The position numbers were made by a program, and so were the translations under genes. Positions 49,236 through 55,358 of a DNA stretch of 64,000 bases are shown here, piece by piece. Below the pieces are notes generated by a model that did not search any database, was not told the origin of the DNA, and was given only the letters and a program-made list of their open reading frames with translations. Where the stretch lies: NCBI RefSeq assembly GCF_001428065.1, contig NZ_LMSE01000004.1:62001-126000 (forward strand). Reading direction: 5' to 3'. The DNA is from Nostocoides sp. Soil756. GTDB taxonomy: Bacteria; Actinomycetota; Actinomycetes; Actinomycetales; Dermatophilaceae. Numbering within the stretch: position 1 is the stretch's first letter; each line of letters begins with the position of its first letter.

Positions 49236-49312
49236 GCCGCCTTAGCTCAGTCGGCCAGAGCGATTCACTCGTAATGAATAGGTCGTCGGTTCGATTCCGA
49301 CAGGCGGCTCCA
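49236..49312 (+). tRNA. tRNA-Thr (anticodon CGT), CCA encoded
   Basis: The acceptor arms GCCGCCT (49236-49242) and AGGCGGC (49302-49308) pair over 7 bp; the D-loop has AGCTCAGTCGG; the anticodon stem ATTCA/TGAAT encloses CTCGTAA; the T-arm has GGTTCGATTCC. The discriminator T is followed by an encoded CCA. Reads the ACG threonine codon. The accessory dab block starts about 120 bases downstream. Confidence 0.95.
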
Positions 49313-49329
49313 CGCAGCACCGCTGGTCA

Positions 49330-49360
49330 GGCCCTCTCGACGCTTGTCGAGGGGGCCTTT
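49330..49360 (+). terminator. Terminator of tRNA-Thr
   Basis: GGCCCTCTCGA and TCGAGGGGGCC pair over 11 positions with one G-T pair and a 6-base loop, followed by TTT. One of the few hairpins here with a T-run. Confidence 0.75.
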
Positions 49361-49428
49361 CCGCCCCCCTCACGGAACGCCGCCACGCGTCCGGTGGTCC
49401 GCTCGGCCCCGGTCCGTGGCTGGGCGTG

Positions 49429-49484
49429 ACGCAGAAGTTCGCCGCACACCCGGCAATTGCGGCGTGCGGCCCGAACTTCTGCGT
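49429..49484. repeat. 56-bp near-perfect palindrome, left of the dab block
   Basis: The arms ACGCAGAAGTTCG (49429-49441) and CGAACTTCTGCGT (49472-49484) are perfect. Inner arms CCGCAC (49442-49447) and GTGCGG (49464-49469) continue the stem, and the centre is GCAATTGC. It lies 30 bases beyond the stop of the regulator gene, so it may be its terminator, but the length and symmetry also fit a REP-like or MITE-like element. Confidence 0.75.
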
Positions 49485-49513
49485 GCCGCCGACGCCTCCG
49501 GGCGACCCGGCGG

Positions 49514-49819
49514 TCAGGTCGCGTCGTCCCCGTCGGCCTCGAAGATGGCCAGGAGGGCCGCCACGCGGGTCGAGGACTCGGCCGGATGGCGCAGGTGCCG
49601 GTCGGGCGCGAGCCGGTAGGTGTTGCGCCGACCGACGCGGTGCTTGGTGATGTACCCGGCGGTCTCGAGGTCGCCGACGATCGACATGGCCGCCCGCTCG
49701 CTGATCCCGACCGACGAGGCGAGCTCGCGGACCTTGGCGTGCGGCGAACGGCTGATCGCCACGAGGACGTGACCGTGGTTGGACAGGAAGGTCCAGGGCC
49801 GCGCCGGAGCATCGCTCAT
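49514..49819 (-). CDS. Small winged-helix regulator of the dab operon
   Basis: The 101-residue protein is little more than one winged helix-turn-helix: FLSNHGHVLVAISRSPHAKVRELASSVGISERAAMSIVGDLETAGYITKHR is its core, ending RNTYRLAPDRHLRHP. The fold is MarR/ArsR-like; no metal-binding cysteines are present. Leaderless: TACGCT (complement of 49826-49831) lies six bases before ATG 49819. It is divergent from the dabBA fusion, with 79 bases between the starts, and a perfect 36-bp palindrome lies across the latter's promoter. It is the obvious candidate to bind it. Confidence 0.82.
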   Translation of the reverse strand: MSDAPARPWTFLSNHGHVLVAISRSPHAKVRELASSVGISERAAMSIVGDLETAGYITKHRVGRRNTYRLAPDRHLRHPAESSTRVAALLAIFEADGDDAT

Positions 49820-49861
49820 CCGCAGAGCGTAGCGACCACGCGACCGCGGAGTGGGCGCCGC

Positions 49862-49901
49862 TTGACACATGCAGCACAATGCATGCATTGTGCTGCATGT
49901 G
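49862..49901 (+). promoter_or_regulatory. dabBA promoter within a perfect 36-bp palindrome
   Basis: -35 TTGACA at 49862-49867; a -10 CATTGT at 49886-49891 is 18 bases on, and GTG 49899 follows 7 bases later. The palindrome spans 49866-49901: CACATGCAGCACAATGCA followed immediately by its exact complement. It runs from the -35 to the start codon, so a bound dimer or pair of dimers must block transcription. Confidence 0.8.
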
Positions 49902-52900
49902 ATCCCTCTGCTCGGCGCTCGCGTCCTCTCGCTGTCGATCCTGCTGCTCGGTGCCGTCGGCCTGCTCGTGGGGGCCGGGGACGGTCCCCCGGAAGGAGCG
50001 CTCCCGCTCGGGCCCGGGCTCTCGTGGCGCTGGCGGTTGGACGTCGCGGCGTGCGTCCTCCTCGTCTTCTTCGGAGTCCTGGGGTGGGTGATCGCCCGGT
50101 TCTGTGACGCCAACCTGCGCGGGCGCGACCGGGCCGGCCGGGTCGGGGTCCTCCTCACCGGCCTGCTCCTCGCCCTGACGGTGCTGGCCGTGAGCAGCAG
50201 CATCGTGATGTTCGCGGTCGGCTGGACGGCCAGCGGCCTGCTGATGACCGTCCTCATCGCGGGCGCCGGCACCGAGCGGGCCGGGGCCGCGGCCCGCAGG
50301 ATGCGCACCACCCTCCTCCTGGGCGACGCCGCGCTGTGGCTGGGCGTGCTCGCCTGGGCCGCGTGGTTGCCCTCGACCGACCGGGCGGGCGTCGTCACGA
50401 GCGCCGGCGGCGGGCAGCTGGCCGTCGTGGCAACCCTCCTCGCCCTCGCCTGCGTGGCGCGCAGCGGCCTGGTCCCGGCGCACCGCTGGCTGCCGGAGAC
50501 CGCGGAGGCGCCGTCGCCGGTCTCGGCCCTGCTGCATGCCGGCATCGTCAACGGAGCCGGCGTGCTCGCGGTCATGGCGTGGCCGGTCTTCGCGGCCGCG
50601 CCGGCCGTGCTGGCGGGGCTCTTCGCGGTGGGCGTGGTGACCCTGGTCATCGGGGGGTGGTCGGGGGCCGCCCGTCGCGACGTCAAGGGCCGGCTCGCCT
50701 CGTCGACGACGACCCAGATGGCGTACATGACGATCCAGGTCGGCCTCGGGCTGCCGGCCATGGCGCTGATGCACCTCGCGGCGCACGGCTGCTACAAGGC
50801 GTGGCTGTTCCTGCGGGCCGGGGGGGCCGTCGACCGGCACGGCAACCGCTGGGCGACCGTGCGCCGGCCCGCGGTCCAGCTCCCGGCCGCCGTGGCCGCC
50901 CTGTTGGTCCTCGCCGTGCCGGCCTGGCCCGCCGCCCGAGCGCTCCTGGAGACCCAAGGGCTGGTGGCAGCGCTCCCGGTGGCGGTGGCCGCCGCCGCGG
51001 TCACCCTCAGCGGGTGGCACGCCGCATCACTCGCCCGCGTCGGGACCGGCGCGGTCGTCGGGGTGGTCCTGCTCGCGGACGTCCTCGGGACGGCCTACCT
51101 CTGGGCGATGGTGGGATGGGAGCACGTCCTGAGCCCCGTTCTCCCGCCGGAGCCCGTGTGGCAGGGCGGGATCGCCGTGCTCCTGCTGGCGGTCGGGGCC
51201 CTCGCCGGCTTCGTCCTCGTCTCCGGCAGCCGGCGGATCGTCAGCAACCCCTCCGACGCCCTGTCCCTGCGCCTGTTCCCGTTGACCATGACGCCGGGGT
51301 CGCGGGCCCGGGGGAGCGTTCCGCCGGCTGTTCTGCGAGCCGCCGCATCCGGCGCCGCGCCCGAGCCGTCCGCCGACGAGCGCACCACCCTGATCGCCAC
51401 CGTCGAGTCGGTGGCGCGCGCCGACGGCCCGGCGTGGCCGCTGCGGGCCATGGTCGCCGCCAACCCCCTGGCGGGGCTGGAACACCTGCCCTACCTCGAC
51501 GCCATCGCAGCGGCCGAGGCGTTCCACGGGCACGACCTGCAGCCGGGCCTGTCCTTCTACCTCCACCGCCACGAGACCGGCCGGATCACCGACACCGACC
51601 TGTCCAGCGCGCAACGCCGGCGCGACGGCGCCCAGCCGGCACCGGGGGAGCTGGTCGCCCGGACCCGGCTCCTCGCCGCTGCCGCGCAGCGGCCGCCCCG
51701 TGCCCCCGGCTCACGCCTCGTCCAGCAGCGCGCCCTGCCGCAGGCCGAGGTCGTCGTCGCCGAGCACGAGAACGCGTGGACCCAGCTCGCCTGGTCGACC
51801 GTGTCCCCCCGGGCCGACCGCGGGAGCTCCGCGGCCCGCGACGAACCCGAGGGGCCCTACAGCCTGTGGCGTCGCGCGGCGCAGCACCGAGGGTACGACC
51901 GCGTCATCGGGATCGACGGCGCATCCCAGTGGGCCCGGTCGCTGCCCGCGGACCCCGTCGCCGCGATCCTGCTGCTCCTGCGCCTGGCGGGCGCCAGCAG
52001 GCCGGACGCGCCGGCCCTGGTCGCGAGTACCCTGGCCGCCGCGCCGGGGTGGAGCGCCCACGCGGCCTGGAGAGCGCGTGAGCAGGGATCCCCCCACCCG
52101 CTCCTCGAGCTCGTCGCGCTGCGCCTGGCGCACGACGTCCTGGTCGCCCTCTCCTGCGACCCGGGGCCGGCCTCGGACCCGGATGTGGGCACGCCCGAGC
52201 GTTCCGACGCCGCGCCGGTGCGGGACGCGGAGCTCCTGTCTCTCTGGCAGGACGCCCTGGAGGTCGGCCCCCAGCGCCGGCTCGTCGCCTCGTTGCGGAG
52301 GCCCGACGTCCGGGCGGCGGGCGACGGGGCGCGAGGACGACCCGCGAGCCAGTCGCTCTGGTGCATCGACGTGCGCTCGGAGCGCATCAGACGTCACCTC
52401 GAGGCCGTGGGGAACCACGAGACCTACGGCTTCGCCGGCTTCTTCGGCGCGGCCATCCGCTTCGTCGACGTCGAGGGTCATGGCCACGACCTGTGCCCCG
52501 CGCTGGTCCGGCCCCAGTTCACGGTCACCGAGGGACTCCGGCCCCTGCGCTTCCGTGAGGCCGTGCACCGGACCGCGACCTCCGTGTCCCGACACCCGGT
52601 GGCCGCGCTGGCGGTCGCCGAGGGAGGTGGGGTGCTGTCCGCCACGACCGCGGTCGCCACCACGGTGGTGCCGGGACGGGCCCGGCGGATGGCGCGGTCC
52701 GCGACCGCGCGCGGCGTCCGGCCCGCGGACACCGCCTCCCTCGTCCTCCCCTGGAGCCTCGACGAGAAGACCGACGTGGTCGAGTCCTCGCTGCGCGCCA
52801 TCGGCCTCGTCGACGGCTTCGCGCCGGTCGTGCTCGTCTGCGGCCACGGCGCGACGGTGGAGAACAACGCCTACGCGACGTCCTACGACTGCGGGGCCTG

Positions 52901-53846
52901 CGGCGGCCATCCCGGGCCGGTCAACGCGTCCGTCCTGGCGCACCTGATCAACGACCCGGACGTGCGGGCGCGCCTGGTGGAGCGGGGGATCCGCATCCCC
53001 GACGACACCCGGGCCGTCGCCGGCCTGCACGACACCACCACCGACCGGGTCGAGGTCCTCGACCGGGTGGAGGACCCTGCGCTGCTGCGTGACCTCGCCG
53101 CCGCGAGCCGTGCCGCGGCCGCCGAACGGCTCCAGGGGCTCCCGCCACGTCGCCGGGCCGACACCGTCACCGGTCTGGCCGACCGGGCGGCGGACTGGTC
53201 CGAGCCGACGCCGGAGTGGGGCCTCGCGGGGAACGCGGCGCTGGTCATCGGGCCGCGGTCGCTCACCCGCGGCGTGGACCTGCAGGGCCGGGTGTTCCTG
53301 CACTCCTACGACGCCGCCCTCGACCCCCACGGCGAGATCCTCGAGCAGCTCCTGACCGCACCGCTCGTGGTCGCGCAGTGGATCAACGCGCAGTACAACT
53401 TCTCGGCCCTGGCCCCCTCGAGCCTGGGCGCGGGCGACAAGACCACCCACAACGTCGTCGGCGACGTCGGGGTCGTCACCGGCGCCCGCGGCGACCTGCG
53501 GGTCGGGCTGCCCTGGCAGGCGCTGTTCACCGACGACCCGGCCCTCGGAAACCCGGATGCCCTCGTCCACGAGCCGCTCCGGCTGAGCGCCCTCGTCGCC
53601 GCGGCCCCGGAGGCCATCGGTGCCGTCATCGGCCGGCACGAGGTCCTGCGCAACCTCGTGGTCAACCGGTGGATCACCGTCATGGCCCTCGACGACGACA
53701 CCGTGAGCGTCCTGCGCCCCGAGCTGACCTGGTCCCGGTGGCAGGAGGCGGATGGCGCCGGCCCCACCCCCGCGCCGTCCCGGGGGAGCGCGCCGTCCCC
53801 GAGAATCCGGCCCGAGCCCGTACCCCTCCCGCAGGAGCAGTCATGA
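49899..53846 (+). CDS. dabBA: DabB-DabA fusion: putative inorganic carbon uptake pump
   Basis: A 1315-residue protein. Residues 1 to about 450 are a NuoL/DabB-type membrane module: HRWLPETAEAPSPVSALLHAG (about 195), DVKGRLASSTTTQMAYM (about 261), HGCYKAWLFL with K300. A linker of about 50 residues leads to a complete DUF2309/DabA domain: ANPLAGLEHLPY (about 521), CIDVRSE (C822, D824) and CGHGATVENN to YDCGACGG (H983, C998). These four residues match the zinc ligands of DabA, and the His-Cys distance of 15 is the same. In DAB/MpsAB systems separate A and B subunits couple cation entry to one-way CO2 hydration. An in-frame ATG at 49869 lies within the palindrome and is less likely. Confidence 0.9.
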   Translation: MIPLLGARVLSLSILLLGAVGLLVGAGDGPPEGALPLGPGLSWRWRLDVAACVLLVFFGVLGWVIARFCDANLRGRDRAGRVGVLLTGLLLALTVLAVSSSIVMFAVGWTASGLLMTVLIAGAGTERAGAAARRMRTTLLLGDAALWLGVLAWAAWLPSTDRAGVVTSAGGGQLAVVATLLALACVARSGLVPAHRWLPETAEAPSPVSALLHAGIVNGAGVLAVMAWPVFAAAPAVLAGLFAVGVVTLVIGGWSGAARRDVKGRLASSTTTQMAYMTIQVGLGLPAMALMHLAAHGCYKAWLFLRAGGAVDRHGNRWATVRRPAVQLPAAVAALLVLAVPAWPAARALLETQGLVAALPVAVAAAAVTLSGWHAASLARVGTGAVVGVVLLADVLGTAYLWAMVGWEHVLSPVLPPEPVWQGGIAVLLLAVGALAGFVLVSGSRRIVSNPSDALSLRLFPLTMTPGSRARGSVPPAVLRAAASGAAPEPSADERTTLIATVESVARADGPAWPLRAMVAANPLAGLEHLPYLDAIAAAEAFHGHDLQPGLSFYLHRHETGRITDTDLSSAQRRRDGAQPAPGELVARTRLLAAAAQRPPRAPGSRLVQQRALPQAEVVVAEHENAWTQLAWSTVSPRADRGSSAARDEPEGPYSLWRRAAQHRGYDRVIGIDGASQWARSLPADPVAAILLLLRLAGASRPDAPALVASTLAAAPGWSAHAAWRAREQGSPHPLLELVALRLAHDVLVALSCDPGPASDPDVGTPERSDAAPVRDAELLSLWQDALEVGPQRRLVASLRRPDVRAAGDGARGRPASQSLWCIDVRSERIRRHLEAVGNHETYGFAGFFGAAIRFVDVEGHGHDLCPALVRPQFTVTEGLRPLRFREAVHRTATSVSRHPVAALAVAEGGGVLSATTAVATTVVPGRARRMARSATARGVRPADTASLVLPWSLDEKTDVVESSLRAIGLVDGFAPVVLVCGHGATVENNAYATSYDCGACGGHPGPVNASVLAHLINDPDVRARLVERGIRIPDDTRAVAGLHDTTTDRVEVLDRVEDPALLRDLAAASRAAAAERLQGLPPRRRADTVTGLADRAADWSEPTPEWGLAGNAALVIGPRSLTRGVDLQGRVFLHSYDAALDPHGEILEQLLTAPLVVAQWINAQYNFSALAPSSLGAGDKTTHNVVGDVGVVTGARGDLRVGLPWQALFTDDPALGNPDALVHEPLRLSALVAAAPEAIGAVIGRHEVLRNLVVNRWITVMALDDDTVSVLRPELTWSRWQEADGAGPTPAPSRGSAPSPRIRPEPVPLPQEQS

Positions 53847-54760
53847 ACAGCATCGACACCACGCCCGTCACCGACCGTCACGCCCCCGCGGTGCCGAACC
53901 CCTACGTCGGCCGCCCGCTGGTGATGGCCACGCAGCACGGCAAGGCCGACGTCGTCGGAGACCTGTTCGCGGCCGTCGGGCTGCACGTCATCCCGGTCGC
54001 CGTCGACACCGACCGGTTCGGCACCTTCACCCCCGAGGTCCCGCGCCCGGGCGATGCCGAGGACGTGGCCGTGGCCAAGGCGCGGGCGGGCGCCGCGGCG
54101 GCCCGGCTGCCCCTGGCCCTCGCCTCCGAGGGAACCTTCACCCCGGACCCCGACACCGGGCTCCTGGTCGTCCAGCGCGAGCTGCTCGTCCTCGTCGACA
54201 CCGAGCGCGACCTGACCATCACGGGCCGTGCAGCCGGCCCCGCCCCGTGGGCGCGTTCCTGGGCCGTGGACGCCGGCGCGGATGCCGATGCCGACCTCGA
54301 CCGGATCCTGGCGGAGGTGGACCTGTCGCACCAGCGGGTCATCGCCCGCCCCGACCCGGCGGCCGCGCCGTCCTCGTCGGCCCCGGCATCCGCGGGCATC
54401 ACGAAGGGCGTCGACTCCCCAGGGGCGCTCCGTGACGCCGTCCGTCACGCCGCCCGCTGGTCGCCGCGGGTCGTCGTCGAGACCGACCTGCGGGCCGACC
54501 AGGCTCCGGACCGGCACGCCGTCATCCGGCGCGCGGCCGTCGACCTCATCCACCGGATGCACACGGACTGCCCGGCGTGCGGCCGACCCGGCTTCGGCGC
54601 CGAGGAACACACCGGCCGGGCGCCATGCTCCGCCTGCGGTGCCACCACGGCGCGGCCGACGCACGTCGTGCACCGGTGCCCCCACTGCTCGCACGAGGTC
54701 CGCACCCCCGCCGGGGAGGGCACCGCGAGCCCGGGCGACTGCCCCGAGTGCAACCCGTGA
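53843..54760 (+). CDS. DUF6671-type protein coupled to dabBA
   Basis: The 305-residue cytoplasmic protein is of unknown function. The N-terminal two thirds (about 15-210) begin RPLVMATQHGKADVVGDLFA and include TDRFGTFTPEVPRPGDAEDVAVAKARAGA and LPLALASEGTFTPDP, reminiscent of the ITPase/Maf-like fold though without proof. The C-terminus has four CxxC pairs (CPAC, CSAC, CPHC, CPEC), likely two zinc ribbons. Start ATG 53843 overlaps the dabBA stop (ATGA), with AGGAG upstream, so the two are co-translated. Family label is from memory. Confidence 0.72.
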   Translation: MNSIDTTPVTDRHAPAVPNPYVGRPLVMATQHGKADVVGDLFAAVGLHVIPVAVDTDRFGTFTPEVPRPGDAEDVAVAKARAGAAAARLPLALASEGTFTPDPDTGLLVVQRELLVLVDTERDLTITGRAAGPAPWARSWAVDAGADADADLDRILAEVDLSHQRVIARPDPAAAPSSSAPASAGITKGVDSPGALRDAVRHAARWSPRVVVETDLRADQAPDRHAVIRRAAVDLIHRMHTDCPACGRPGFGAEEHTGRAPCSACGATTARPTHVVHRCPHCSHEVRTPAGEGTASPGDCPECNP

Positions 54761-54854
54761 CCGGCCCCCGGCCCGGGGCACGGAGCGGCGTGACGGGCGC
54801 CGGGCCCGTGCGGCTCGTGGTGCTGCGGCCGACCGTCGACGAGGATGACGTGGC

Positions 54855-55358
54855 ATGAGCCGCCCTCGCCCCCGCCCGCTGCGCCCCGGCCCCGGCCAGG
54901 AGTCCGTCTGGGACTACCCCCGCCCGCCCGCCGTCGATGCGAGCGGGGAGTCGGTCGAGGTCTGGCTGGGCGGCGTCCGGATCGCGCTGAGCACCCGCCC
55001 CCTGCGCGTCCTCGAGACCAGCCACCCCCCGACGTACTACCTGCCGAGCGCCGACTTCGCCGAGGGTGCGCTGCGCCCGGCCACCGGCTCGTCGTACTGC
55101 GAGTGGAAGGGCGAGGCGGCGTACTACGACGTGGTGGGCGGCGGCGTGGTCGCCCCCCGCGCCGGCTGGACCTACCCAAGCCCCACCCGGGGCTTCGAGG
55201 TGCTGCTCGACCACGTGGCCGTGATGCCCGGGGCGCTGGACCGCTGCCTCGTCGACGACGAGGTGGTGACGCCCCAGGCGGGCGGCTTCTACGGCGGCTG
55301 GATCACGAGCCGGGTCGTCGGCCCCTTCAAGGGCGAACCCGGGAGCTGGGGCTGGTAG
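54855..55358 (+). CDS. DUF427 domain protein
   Basis: The 167-residue protein shows the DUF427 pattern: VEVWLGGVRIALSTRPLRVLETSHPPTYYLP, TGSSYCEWKGEAAYYDVV, FEVLLDHVAVMP and the ending GGFYGGWITSRVVGPFKGEPG. The function of the family is not known. The gap of 94 bases to the DUF6671 gene makes operon membership uncertain. ATG 54855 with a distant GAGGA. It is the last gene of the accessory block before ppa. Confidence 0.87.
   Translation: MSRPRPRPLRPGPGQESVWDYPRPPAVDASGESVEVWLGGVRIALSTRPLRVLETSHPPTYYLPSADFAEGALRPATGSSYCEWKGEAAYYDVVGGGVVAPRAGWTYPSPTRGFEVLLDHVAVMPGALDRCLVDDEVVTPQAGGFYGGWITSRVVGPFKGEPGSWGW

Follow-up and report, generated by a model that had tools for sequence, protein, structure and literature searches.

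The DAB2 system of the autotroph Halothiobacillus neapolitanus (PDB 9rd0) is encoded by two genes, for DabA2 and DabB2, and in its structure the zinc is held by Cys, His, Cys and a water molecule while an aspartate pairs with an arginine (PMC13144422). MpsAB of Staphylococcus aureus, which is also made of two proteins, represents the same family in a heterotroph, described as having MpsAB but no carbonic anhydrase (PMC8567241). A natural fusion of DabB and DabA (MpsA and MpsB) is in print for Acidimicrobium ferrooxidans (PMC6689103, PMC13144422), and an engineered DabB2-DabA2 fusion is reported to have no significant effect on growth yield (PMC13144422). Here we describe a DabB-DabA protein that is likewise a single chain, encoded in a 64-kb stretch (the window) of Nostocoides sp. 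Soil756, a heterotroph like S. aureus, whose 3.47-Mb genome is rated 100% complete. Its gene is followed by a gene of the DUF6671 family and diverges from a gene for a minimal winged-helix protein. The best explanation of the locus is probably a single-chain DAB pump with a winged-helix switch and DUF6671 as a partner. A first-pass annotation of the window had asked whether such fusions were already described, and as a kind they are; it is the helper, DUF6671, and the control gene, shared between carbon-uptake systems, that seem to have gone unrecognised.

The fused DabB-DabA protein

The fused gene lies on the forward strand at 49899–53846 and encodes 1315 residues from a GTG start. As the annotation had read it, this one frame holds a NuoL/DabB-like membrane module followed by a full DUF2309/DabA module, with Pfam matches to PF00361 (E 5e-26) and, over profile positions 2–747 of 747, to PF10070 (DabA; 650.5 bits, E 5e-195). 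The DabB module covers about residues 1–450 (49899–51248) and the DabA module residues 503–1259 (51405–53675), with a linker of about residues 451–490 (51249–51368, boundaries approximate) between them. Both modules are homologous to those of DAB2. A single-sequence search with the N-terminal half ranks complex-I chains above DabB2, so the assignment to DabB needed a profile; one built from 22 DabB modules of fused and split loci gives the DabB2 chain of 9rd0 330 bits and any other chain at most 243.5. These scores rule out a half that is merely NuoL-like and bear out its expected alignment with DabB. In a structure model of residues 30–1229 (predicted local distance difference test score, pLDDT, 67; predicted template-modelling score, pTM, 0.68) NuoL chains are matched by the N-terminal half, and the best 50 matches listed include no DabA chain.

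The catalytic residues of DabA2 are retained in the fusion. On alignment C351, H524 and C539 correspond to C822, H983 and C998, and the Asp353-Arg355 dyad to D824-R826; the zinc cysteine and the dyad lie together in C822-I-D824-V-R826 (52362–52376) and the remaining two zinc ligands in the stretch from H983 to C998 (52845–52892). The annotation had taken C822, D824, H983 and C998 as all four zinc ligands; the positions are correct but the aspartate belongs to the dyad. Glu444 of DabA2, which sits on the membrane-inserted finger and in the proton path, aligns with E908 (52620–52622), a position occupied by Asp in the genome taken for Phycicoccus jejuensis NRRL B-24460 (G083), from the same genus as the window. 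In the membrane module all seven proton-path residues are kept as S209, H213, K263, S269, H292, H296 and K300, corresponding in that order to S256, H260, K310, S316, H339, H343 and K347 of DabB2, the residues mutated in the DAB2 study (PMC13144422). The position of the NuoL glutamate is taken by T110 and has no Glu. Of the DabB2 ion-pair residues K235, D185 and R182, described as having a tuning, non-essential role (PMC13144422), D185 is kept as D143; the replacement of R182 by L140 and of K235 by R188 counts against the reading as a DAB pump.

With these residues in place the one-chain protein, which belongs to the DAB/MpsAB family, very likely functions as a DAB; the engineered DabB2-DabA2 fusion, with its growth yield not significantly changed, also speaks for this. 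Protons, or another cation, would cross the membrane through the DabB half, and the tethered DabA half would use the energy from DabB to convert CO2 to bicarbonate in the cytoplasm, in one direction only. Instead of a proton-driven vectorial carbonic anhydrase it might be a Na+/bicarbonate symporter of the MpsAB type or a membrane-potential device, given that S. aureus MpsAB has been proposed to be a Na+/HCO3- symporter (PMC6689103, PMC13144422) and that two homologues of the winged-helix gene adjoin genes of the Mrp Na+/H+ antiporter. Such a mode of action is unlikely for a protein that keeps the carbonic-anhydrase zinc site, the Asp-Arg dyad and the finger Glu, and DAB2 itself is reported not to relieve sodium stress and to be fully active without sodium (PMC13144422).

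The distribution of the fusion was followed in samples of 396 genomes of the phylum and 149 of the family. DabA is present in eight of the family genomes and all eight, the window and seven others, have it fused to DabB in a single frame. The chance that two genes were joined in error, by assembly or sequencing, is negligible: the same fusion in independent genomes, including all seven other DabA-bearing genomes of the family, together with a constant GC content at third codon positions (0.90–0.99 in each of 13 blocks to codon 1300, junction included) rules out the joining error near codons 450–500 that the annotation had raised, and these blocks show no sign of a frameshift at the module junction. 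DabA occurs in 23 of the 396 phylum genomes, and a check for a shared frame that covered 13 of the 22 other than the window's, leaving out nine, found one fused and 12 split. The fused one, G228, which was taken for A. ferrooxidans, has the same module order in an open frame of 1409 codons. Actinotalea lenta, reached through DUF6671, is likewise fused, which brings the single-frame fusions to ten proteins. Length of the open frame had to be rejected as a marker of fusion, as the long frames of L050–L054 are large DabA genes with DabB downstream. These loci, from one group of Actinomycetota, have DabA frames of about 1300 codons in the order A-B and represent an enlarged DabA variant.

Trees were built by quick searches from 33 DabA and 33 DabB modules of the loci at hand. 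The nine fusions from the window's family and Actinotalea cluster in both trees with a support of 99 in the Shimodaira-Hasegawa-like approximate likelihood-ratio test, while the A. ferrooxidans fusion, for all its likeness in module order and single frame, is placed elsewhere in both. A single clade of all ten fusions is rejected on the quick DabA tree, the one given the approximately unbiased (AU) test (p 0.001); the DabB tree, in which the A. ferrooxidans branch is long, agrees. The fusion of this type, which may be called the Micrococcales type as we take Actinotalea and the window's family to belong to that order, is on this separate placement probably a second, independent fusion. A literature search of open-licence PMC papers found none on Micrococcales fusions.

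The winged-helix gene and the palindrome

The divergent minimal winged-helix gene of the annotation is present at 49514–49819 on the reverse strand and encodes 101 residues. It is MarR/ArsR-like, but is named here as winged-helix only, because the scores for the MarR profiles PF12802 and PF01047, scanned inside a frame of 415 codons, both fall below the curated cut-off (24.6 against 27 bits and 18.8 against 24.6 bits). Between it and the fused gene lies a perfect palindrome of 36 bp (49866–49901), a predicted operator with three half-sites of the CACATGCA type spaced in steps of 14 bp. Its arms of 18 nt are longer than those of any other perfect gapless palindrome in the window (next longest 11), and its core occurs only once in the genome at up to 3 mismatches. 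The palindrome spans the interval from a −35-like TTGACA, read from the sequence at 49862–49867 on the forward strand, to the GTG start codon, and within it the −10-like element CATTGT (49886–49891, forward strand), a weak match in the window and a better one in three relatives, stands 7 nt ahead of the GTG. In all five aligned sequences, the window included, a hexamer of this kind, chosen by eye, precedes the presumed start codon by 7 nt. This spacing favours GTG 49899 over the ATG at 49869, from which the open frame to 53846 would have 1325 codons, and it suggests a leaderless mRNA. Transcription would thus be predicted to start from a leaderless promoter with its −35 element, −10 element and start codon at or inside the palindrome.

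The divergent winged-helix protein would most likely bind the palindrome and repress both genes until inorganic carbon runs short. That it controls the fusion operon at all we consider rather more probable than not, and its description by the annotation as the operon's own repressor is plausible, since the palindrome sits on the predicted promoter. The switch is likely to be dedicated to this operon, as the palindrome core occurs once and the genome holds only one strong copy of the winged-helix gene.

A motif was sought upstream of other winged-helix genes. The first guess at a half-site, from seven loci, was TACATG with a spacer of 10, and as a dyad it reaches 10 of 12 positions in 6 of 60 other loci; the 13 remaining spacers in the range 4–17 give 0–3. 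The longer dyad TACATGAA-N6-TTCATGTA reaches 12 of 16 positions in 12 of the 60 loci at spacer 6, in 0–3 at 14 other spacers, and in none of 57 control stretches 1 kb further away at spacer 6. Four of the 12 loci are fused-DAB loci that did not enter into the guess (L046–L048 and L078), three are SbtA/DUF6671 loci (L092, L102 and L103, the last two with an identical site), one is a split DAB (L097) and four belong to one other family (L113–L116). The dyad therefore fits fused-DAB and SbtA loci and is not general to the winged-helix family. L103 (CAMCPZ010000015.1) is from a metagenome-assembled genome (MAG) labelled Bifidobacterium breve, probably wrongly, as its neighbouring genes match those of the Nanopelagicales MAG of L102 at 93–95%. 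Palindromes with at least 10 paired bases and at most 2 mismatches lie near winged-helix genes in 4 of 25 regions (the window, L081, L090 and L099), and none was seen in the other 21.

Several observations count against control through this site. TACATG was lengthened to TACATGAA after a first look at the results, so that the 60 loci are no clean hold-out, and among eight fresh winged-helix loci (15 fetched, 8 usable) only one reaches 12 of 16, no improvement on spacer 8; as the motif did no better there than other spacers, our estimates for control and, slightly, for the explanation as a whole were lowered. The palindrome is imperfect in all four aligned relatives, in which, read off the alignment, CATG-like boxes hold the 14-bp steps. 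Homologues of the winged-helix gene also adjoin unrelated genes, among them those for STAS-ANTAR and EAL/GGDEF proteins and a desaturase. In 38 further winged-helix loci, where selected neighbours were scanned and the counts have no null comparison, the gene lies beside SbtA in five, SulP in one and Mrp in two, and purK and a carboxyltransferase gene also occur. For these last, the scan placed purK near the homologue in L142, purE and purK were recognised by eye in L145, and L139 has a gene for an acyl-CoA carboxyltransferase near its homologue. PurK and acyl-CoA carboxyltransferase are enzymes that use bicarbonate or CO2, and the winged-helix protein may govern carboxylation more widely.

DUF6671 and the genes it accompanies

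The DUF6671 gene (53843–54760, forward strand, 305 residues) begins within the stop of the fused gene, the two overlapping as ATGA (53843–53846), which agrees with the translational coupling noted by the annotation; the protein would thus be co-translated with the pump. Its product matches PF20376 with an E-value of 1.5e-20, scanned within a longer frame. The motifs T-x-H-x-K, DTD, GTF, ASEG and DLRA are invariant in six homologues, as are eight cysteines in four CxxC pairs from C243 to C303 (54569–54751), which are predicted to form two zinc ribbons. The annotation called the protein a zinc-ribbon partner, and the ribbons are indeed predicted from the four pairs, but this describes only part of it, as its N-terminal part is modelled with an ITPase/Maf/YjjX-like fold. 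The AlphaFold2 model, from six sequences, has a pLDDT of 85 and a pTM of 0.80, and its best PDB fold matches are RdgB, YjjX, Maf and related proteins (Foldseek E 4.6e-5, probability 1.00). Sequence identity is 8–19% in the top 14 matches, those with E up to 0.001, and DUF6671 differs from the ITPase/Maf/YjjX superfamily in its extra C-terminal predicted ribbons. Against this assignment stand the low template-modelling scores: for the two best matches they are 0.30 and 0.33 by query, and 0.42 and 0.54 by target. No PII-like match is among the best 50 of 727 PDB matches, and a literature search found no paper naming DUF6671.

The winged-helix and DUF6671 genes keep company with DAB systems of both kinds, split and fused, and with the bicarbonate transporter SbtA. 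In the phylum sample DUF6671 is found in 8 of the 396 genomes and the winged-helix gene in 56; all eight DUF6671 genomes have the winged-helix gene (p 1e-7) and six have DabA (p 5e-7), while DabA and the winged-helix gene occur together in nine (p 0.002); the genomes behind these values are not phylogenetically independent. In the family DUF6671 is present in 3 of 149 genomes, which are the three genomes of the same genus with DAB. An alignment scan of 84,980 species genomes, made through one peptide pattern and not exhaustive, gave 37 DUF6671 loci, with DabA in 16, SbtA in five and the winged-helix gene in 30 (within 1.5 kb in 23). SbtA, which was identified with PF05982 (327 bits) in one of the loci and from similarity in the remaining ones, lies 357–407 bp from DUF6671 in these five, where the winged-helix gene is also present. 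SbtA is not demonstrably enriched in winged-helix genomes (10 of 55 against 2 of 25, p 0.32); the evidence that joins the two is adjacency, 5 of those 10 having SbtA within 2 kb of the winged-helix gene. The window, G128, P. jejuensis and A. lenta all show the full arrangement: a winged-helix gene divergent from a fused DabB-DabA gene, behind which DUF6671 follows. In G228, in contrast, DAB, DUF6671 and the winged-helix gene are at three separate places, and the passages of PMC13144422 consulted make no mention of either gene with DAB2.

Alternatively, the DUF6671 protein may have a general enzymatic function, such as that of a house-cleaning nucleoside triphosphate pyrophosphatase, with no part in carbon uptake and with a link to central metabolism through isocitrate dehydrogenase (icd). 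The ITPase-like fold would suit such an enzyme, and the gene company offers further points against a role in uptake: icd is present at 12 of the 37 loci, two of which also have DabA, and a DUF6671 match is missing from 17 of the 23 phylum DabA genomes and from five of the eight family DAB genomes, all of other genera. In L095, L096 and L098 isocitrate dehydrogenase is followed by DUF6671 with 7–12 bp between match ends, making it a second kind of partner. Six of the 37 loci have none of DabA, SbtA and icd, and in five of these six the DUF6671 gene is no more than 2.8 kb from where the stored sequence ends, on one side or both. G005 has no DUF6671 family match, but directly after its fused gene 78 aligned residues (L047:10144–10377) resemble DUF6671 and are probably a shortened copy. 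A general enzyme is possible rather than probable, as it has against it the winged-helix gene in all eight and DabA in six of the eight DUF6671 genomes, the closeness of SbtA in five loci, and the recurrence of the order DabB-DabA-DUF6671 in an Archangium MAG from another phylum, where DUF6671 follows a split DabB-DabA after 21 bp.

We put the chance that DUF6671 acts in carbon uptake at about even. It would most likely be a soluble, nucleotide-handling zinc-ribbon partner of transporters, of DAB here and of SbtA elsewhere, comparable in role to SbtB in another fold: SbtB is PII-like and is reported to have ATPase/ADPase activity (PMC10991534), whereas DUF6671 models as ITPase-like with a cysteine-rich tail. 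The precedent of a nucleotide-handling transporter partner makes an SbtB-like role a reasonable guess, but that DUF6671 works in carbon uptake through a nucleotide signal, as the analogy would have it, must be considered rather doubtful.

Genomic setting and physiology

The cassette is flanked by a tRNA-Thr (CGT) gene (49236–49312, forward strand) on its left and a DUF427 gene. Between the tRNA gene and the winged-helix gene is an imperfect inverted repeat with 34-nt arms (49423–49490), for which both a terminator and a mobile repeat were considered and which is possibly a terminator. The interval after the tRNA gene (49312–54855 in the window; L165–L169) varies in length within the genus and may therefore be an insertion hotspot: it measures about 200 bp up to the DUF427 gene in G053 and holds 1.0–2.5 kb of other DNA in four other members. 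In P. jejuensis the cassette is at another site, some 2.4 kb away from a cluster of tRNA genes. At the end of the window's cassette remote from the tRNA, no attachment-site repeat of that tRNA was seen. The sporadic occurrence of DabA (in 8 of 149 family genomes), the location next to tRNA-Thr, a site that is almost empty in G053, and the shortened DUF6671-like stretch in G005 might be taken to indicate a horizontally acquired locus that is decaying and has no present function. This is improbable for a locus whose catalytic residues are kept, whose frames are intact and whose regulator is 94% and fusion 78% identical to those of G128.

The same genome encodes a beta-carbonic anhydrase (PF00484, 49.5 bits) with C-M-D-S-R and H-T-R-C, agreeing with C-x-D-x-R and H-x2-C, which we take to be the motifs of that family. 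A match to the family is present in 147 of the 149 family genomes. The DAB system cannot then be standing in for a missing carbonic anhydrase, in contrast to S. aureus, which has MpsAB without one, and that there is no evident need for it tells against the proposed pump. RuBisCO-based fixation is likewise ruled out, there being no match to the large subunit in the genome. The suggestion of the annotation that the genes form a self-contained carbon-supply cassette is weakened accordingly; with a beta-carbonic anhydrase in the genome, and the cassette lying as an accessory beside tRNA-Thr, the pump is an additional, accessory source rather than the sole candidate. The annotation's further proposals, that one chain would fix a 1:1 stoichiometry and that the cassette might serve growth at low CO2, are likewise not supported in the form given.

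More widely, the winged-helix and DUF6671 genes may form a hitherto unrecognised module for the response to inorganic carbon, belonging to Actinomycetota and, as outliers, to Acidobacteriota and Myxococcota, that is placed on various carbon suppliers (split or fused DAB, SbtA) and on CO2-handling enzymes (isocitrate dehydrogenase). At operators resembling TACATGAA-N6-TTCATGTA the winged-helix protein would sense the state of carbon supply, and DUF6671, as an ITPase-fold zinc-ribbon protein, would tune the transporter by a nucleotide signal in the manner of SbtB. This is put forward tentatively, as an idea more apt to be revised than to stand in full.

The single-chain pump would be the natural counterpart of the engineered fusion that was used for the structure of DAB2, and its apparent origin apart from that of A. 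ferrooxidans suggests that a tether between the subunits was favoured on two or more occasions. More may be gained from the two accompanying genes, which would give a family of unknown function, DUF6671, its first testable role and make the winged-helix protein a candidate regulator of inorganic-carbon uptake in actinobacteria.

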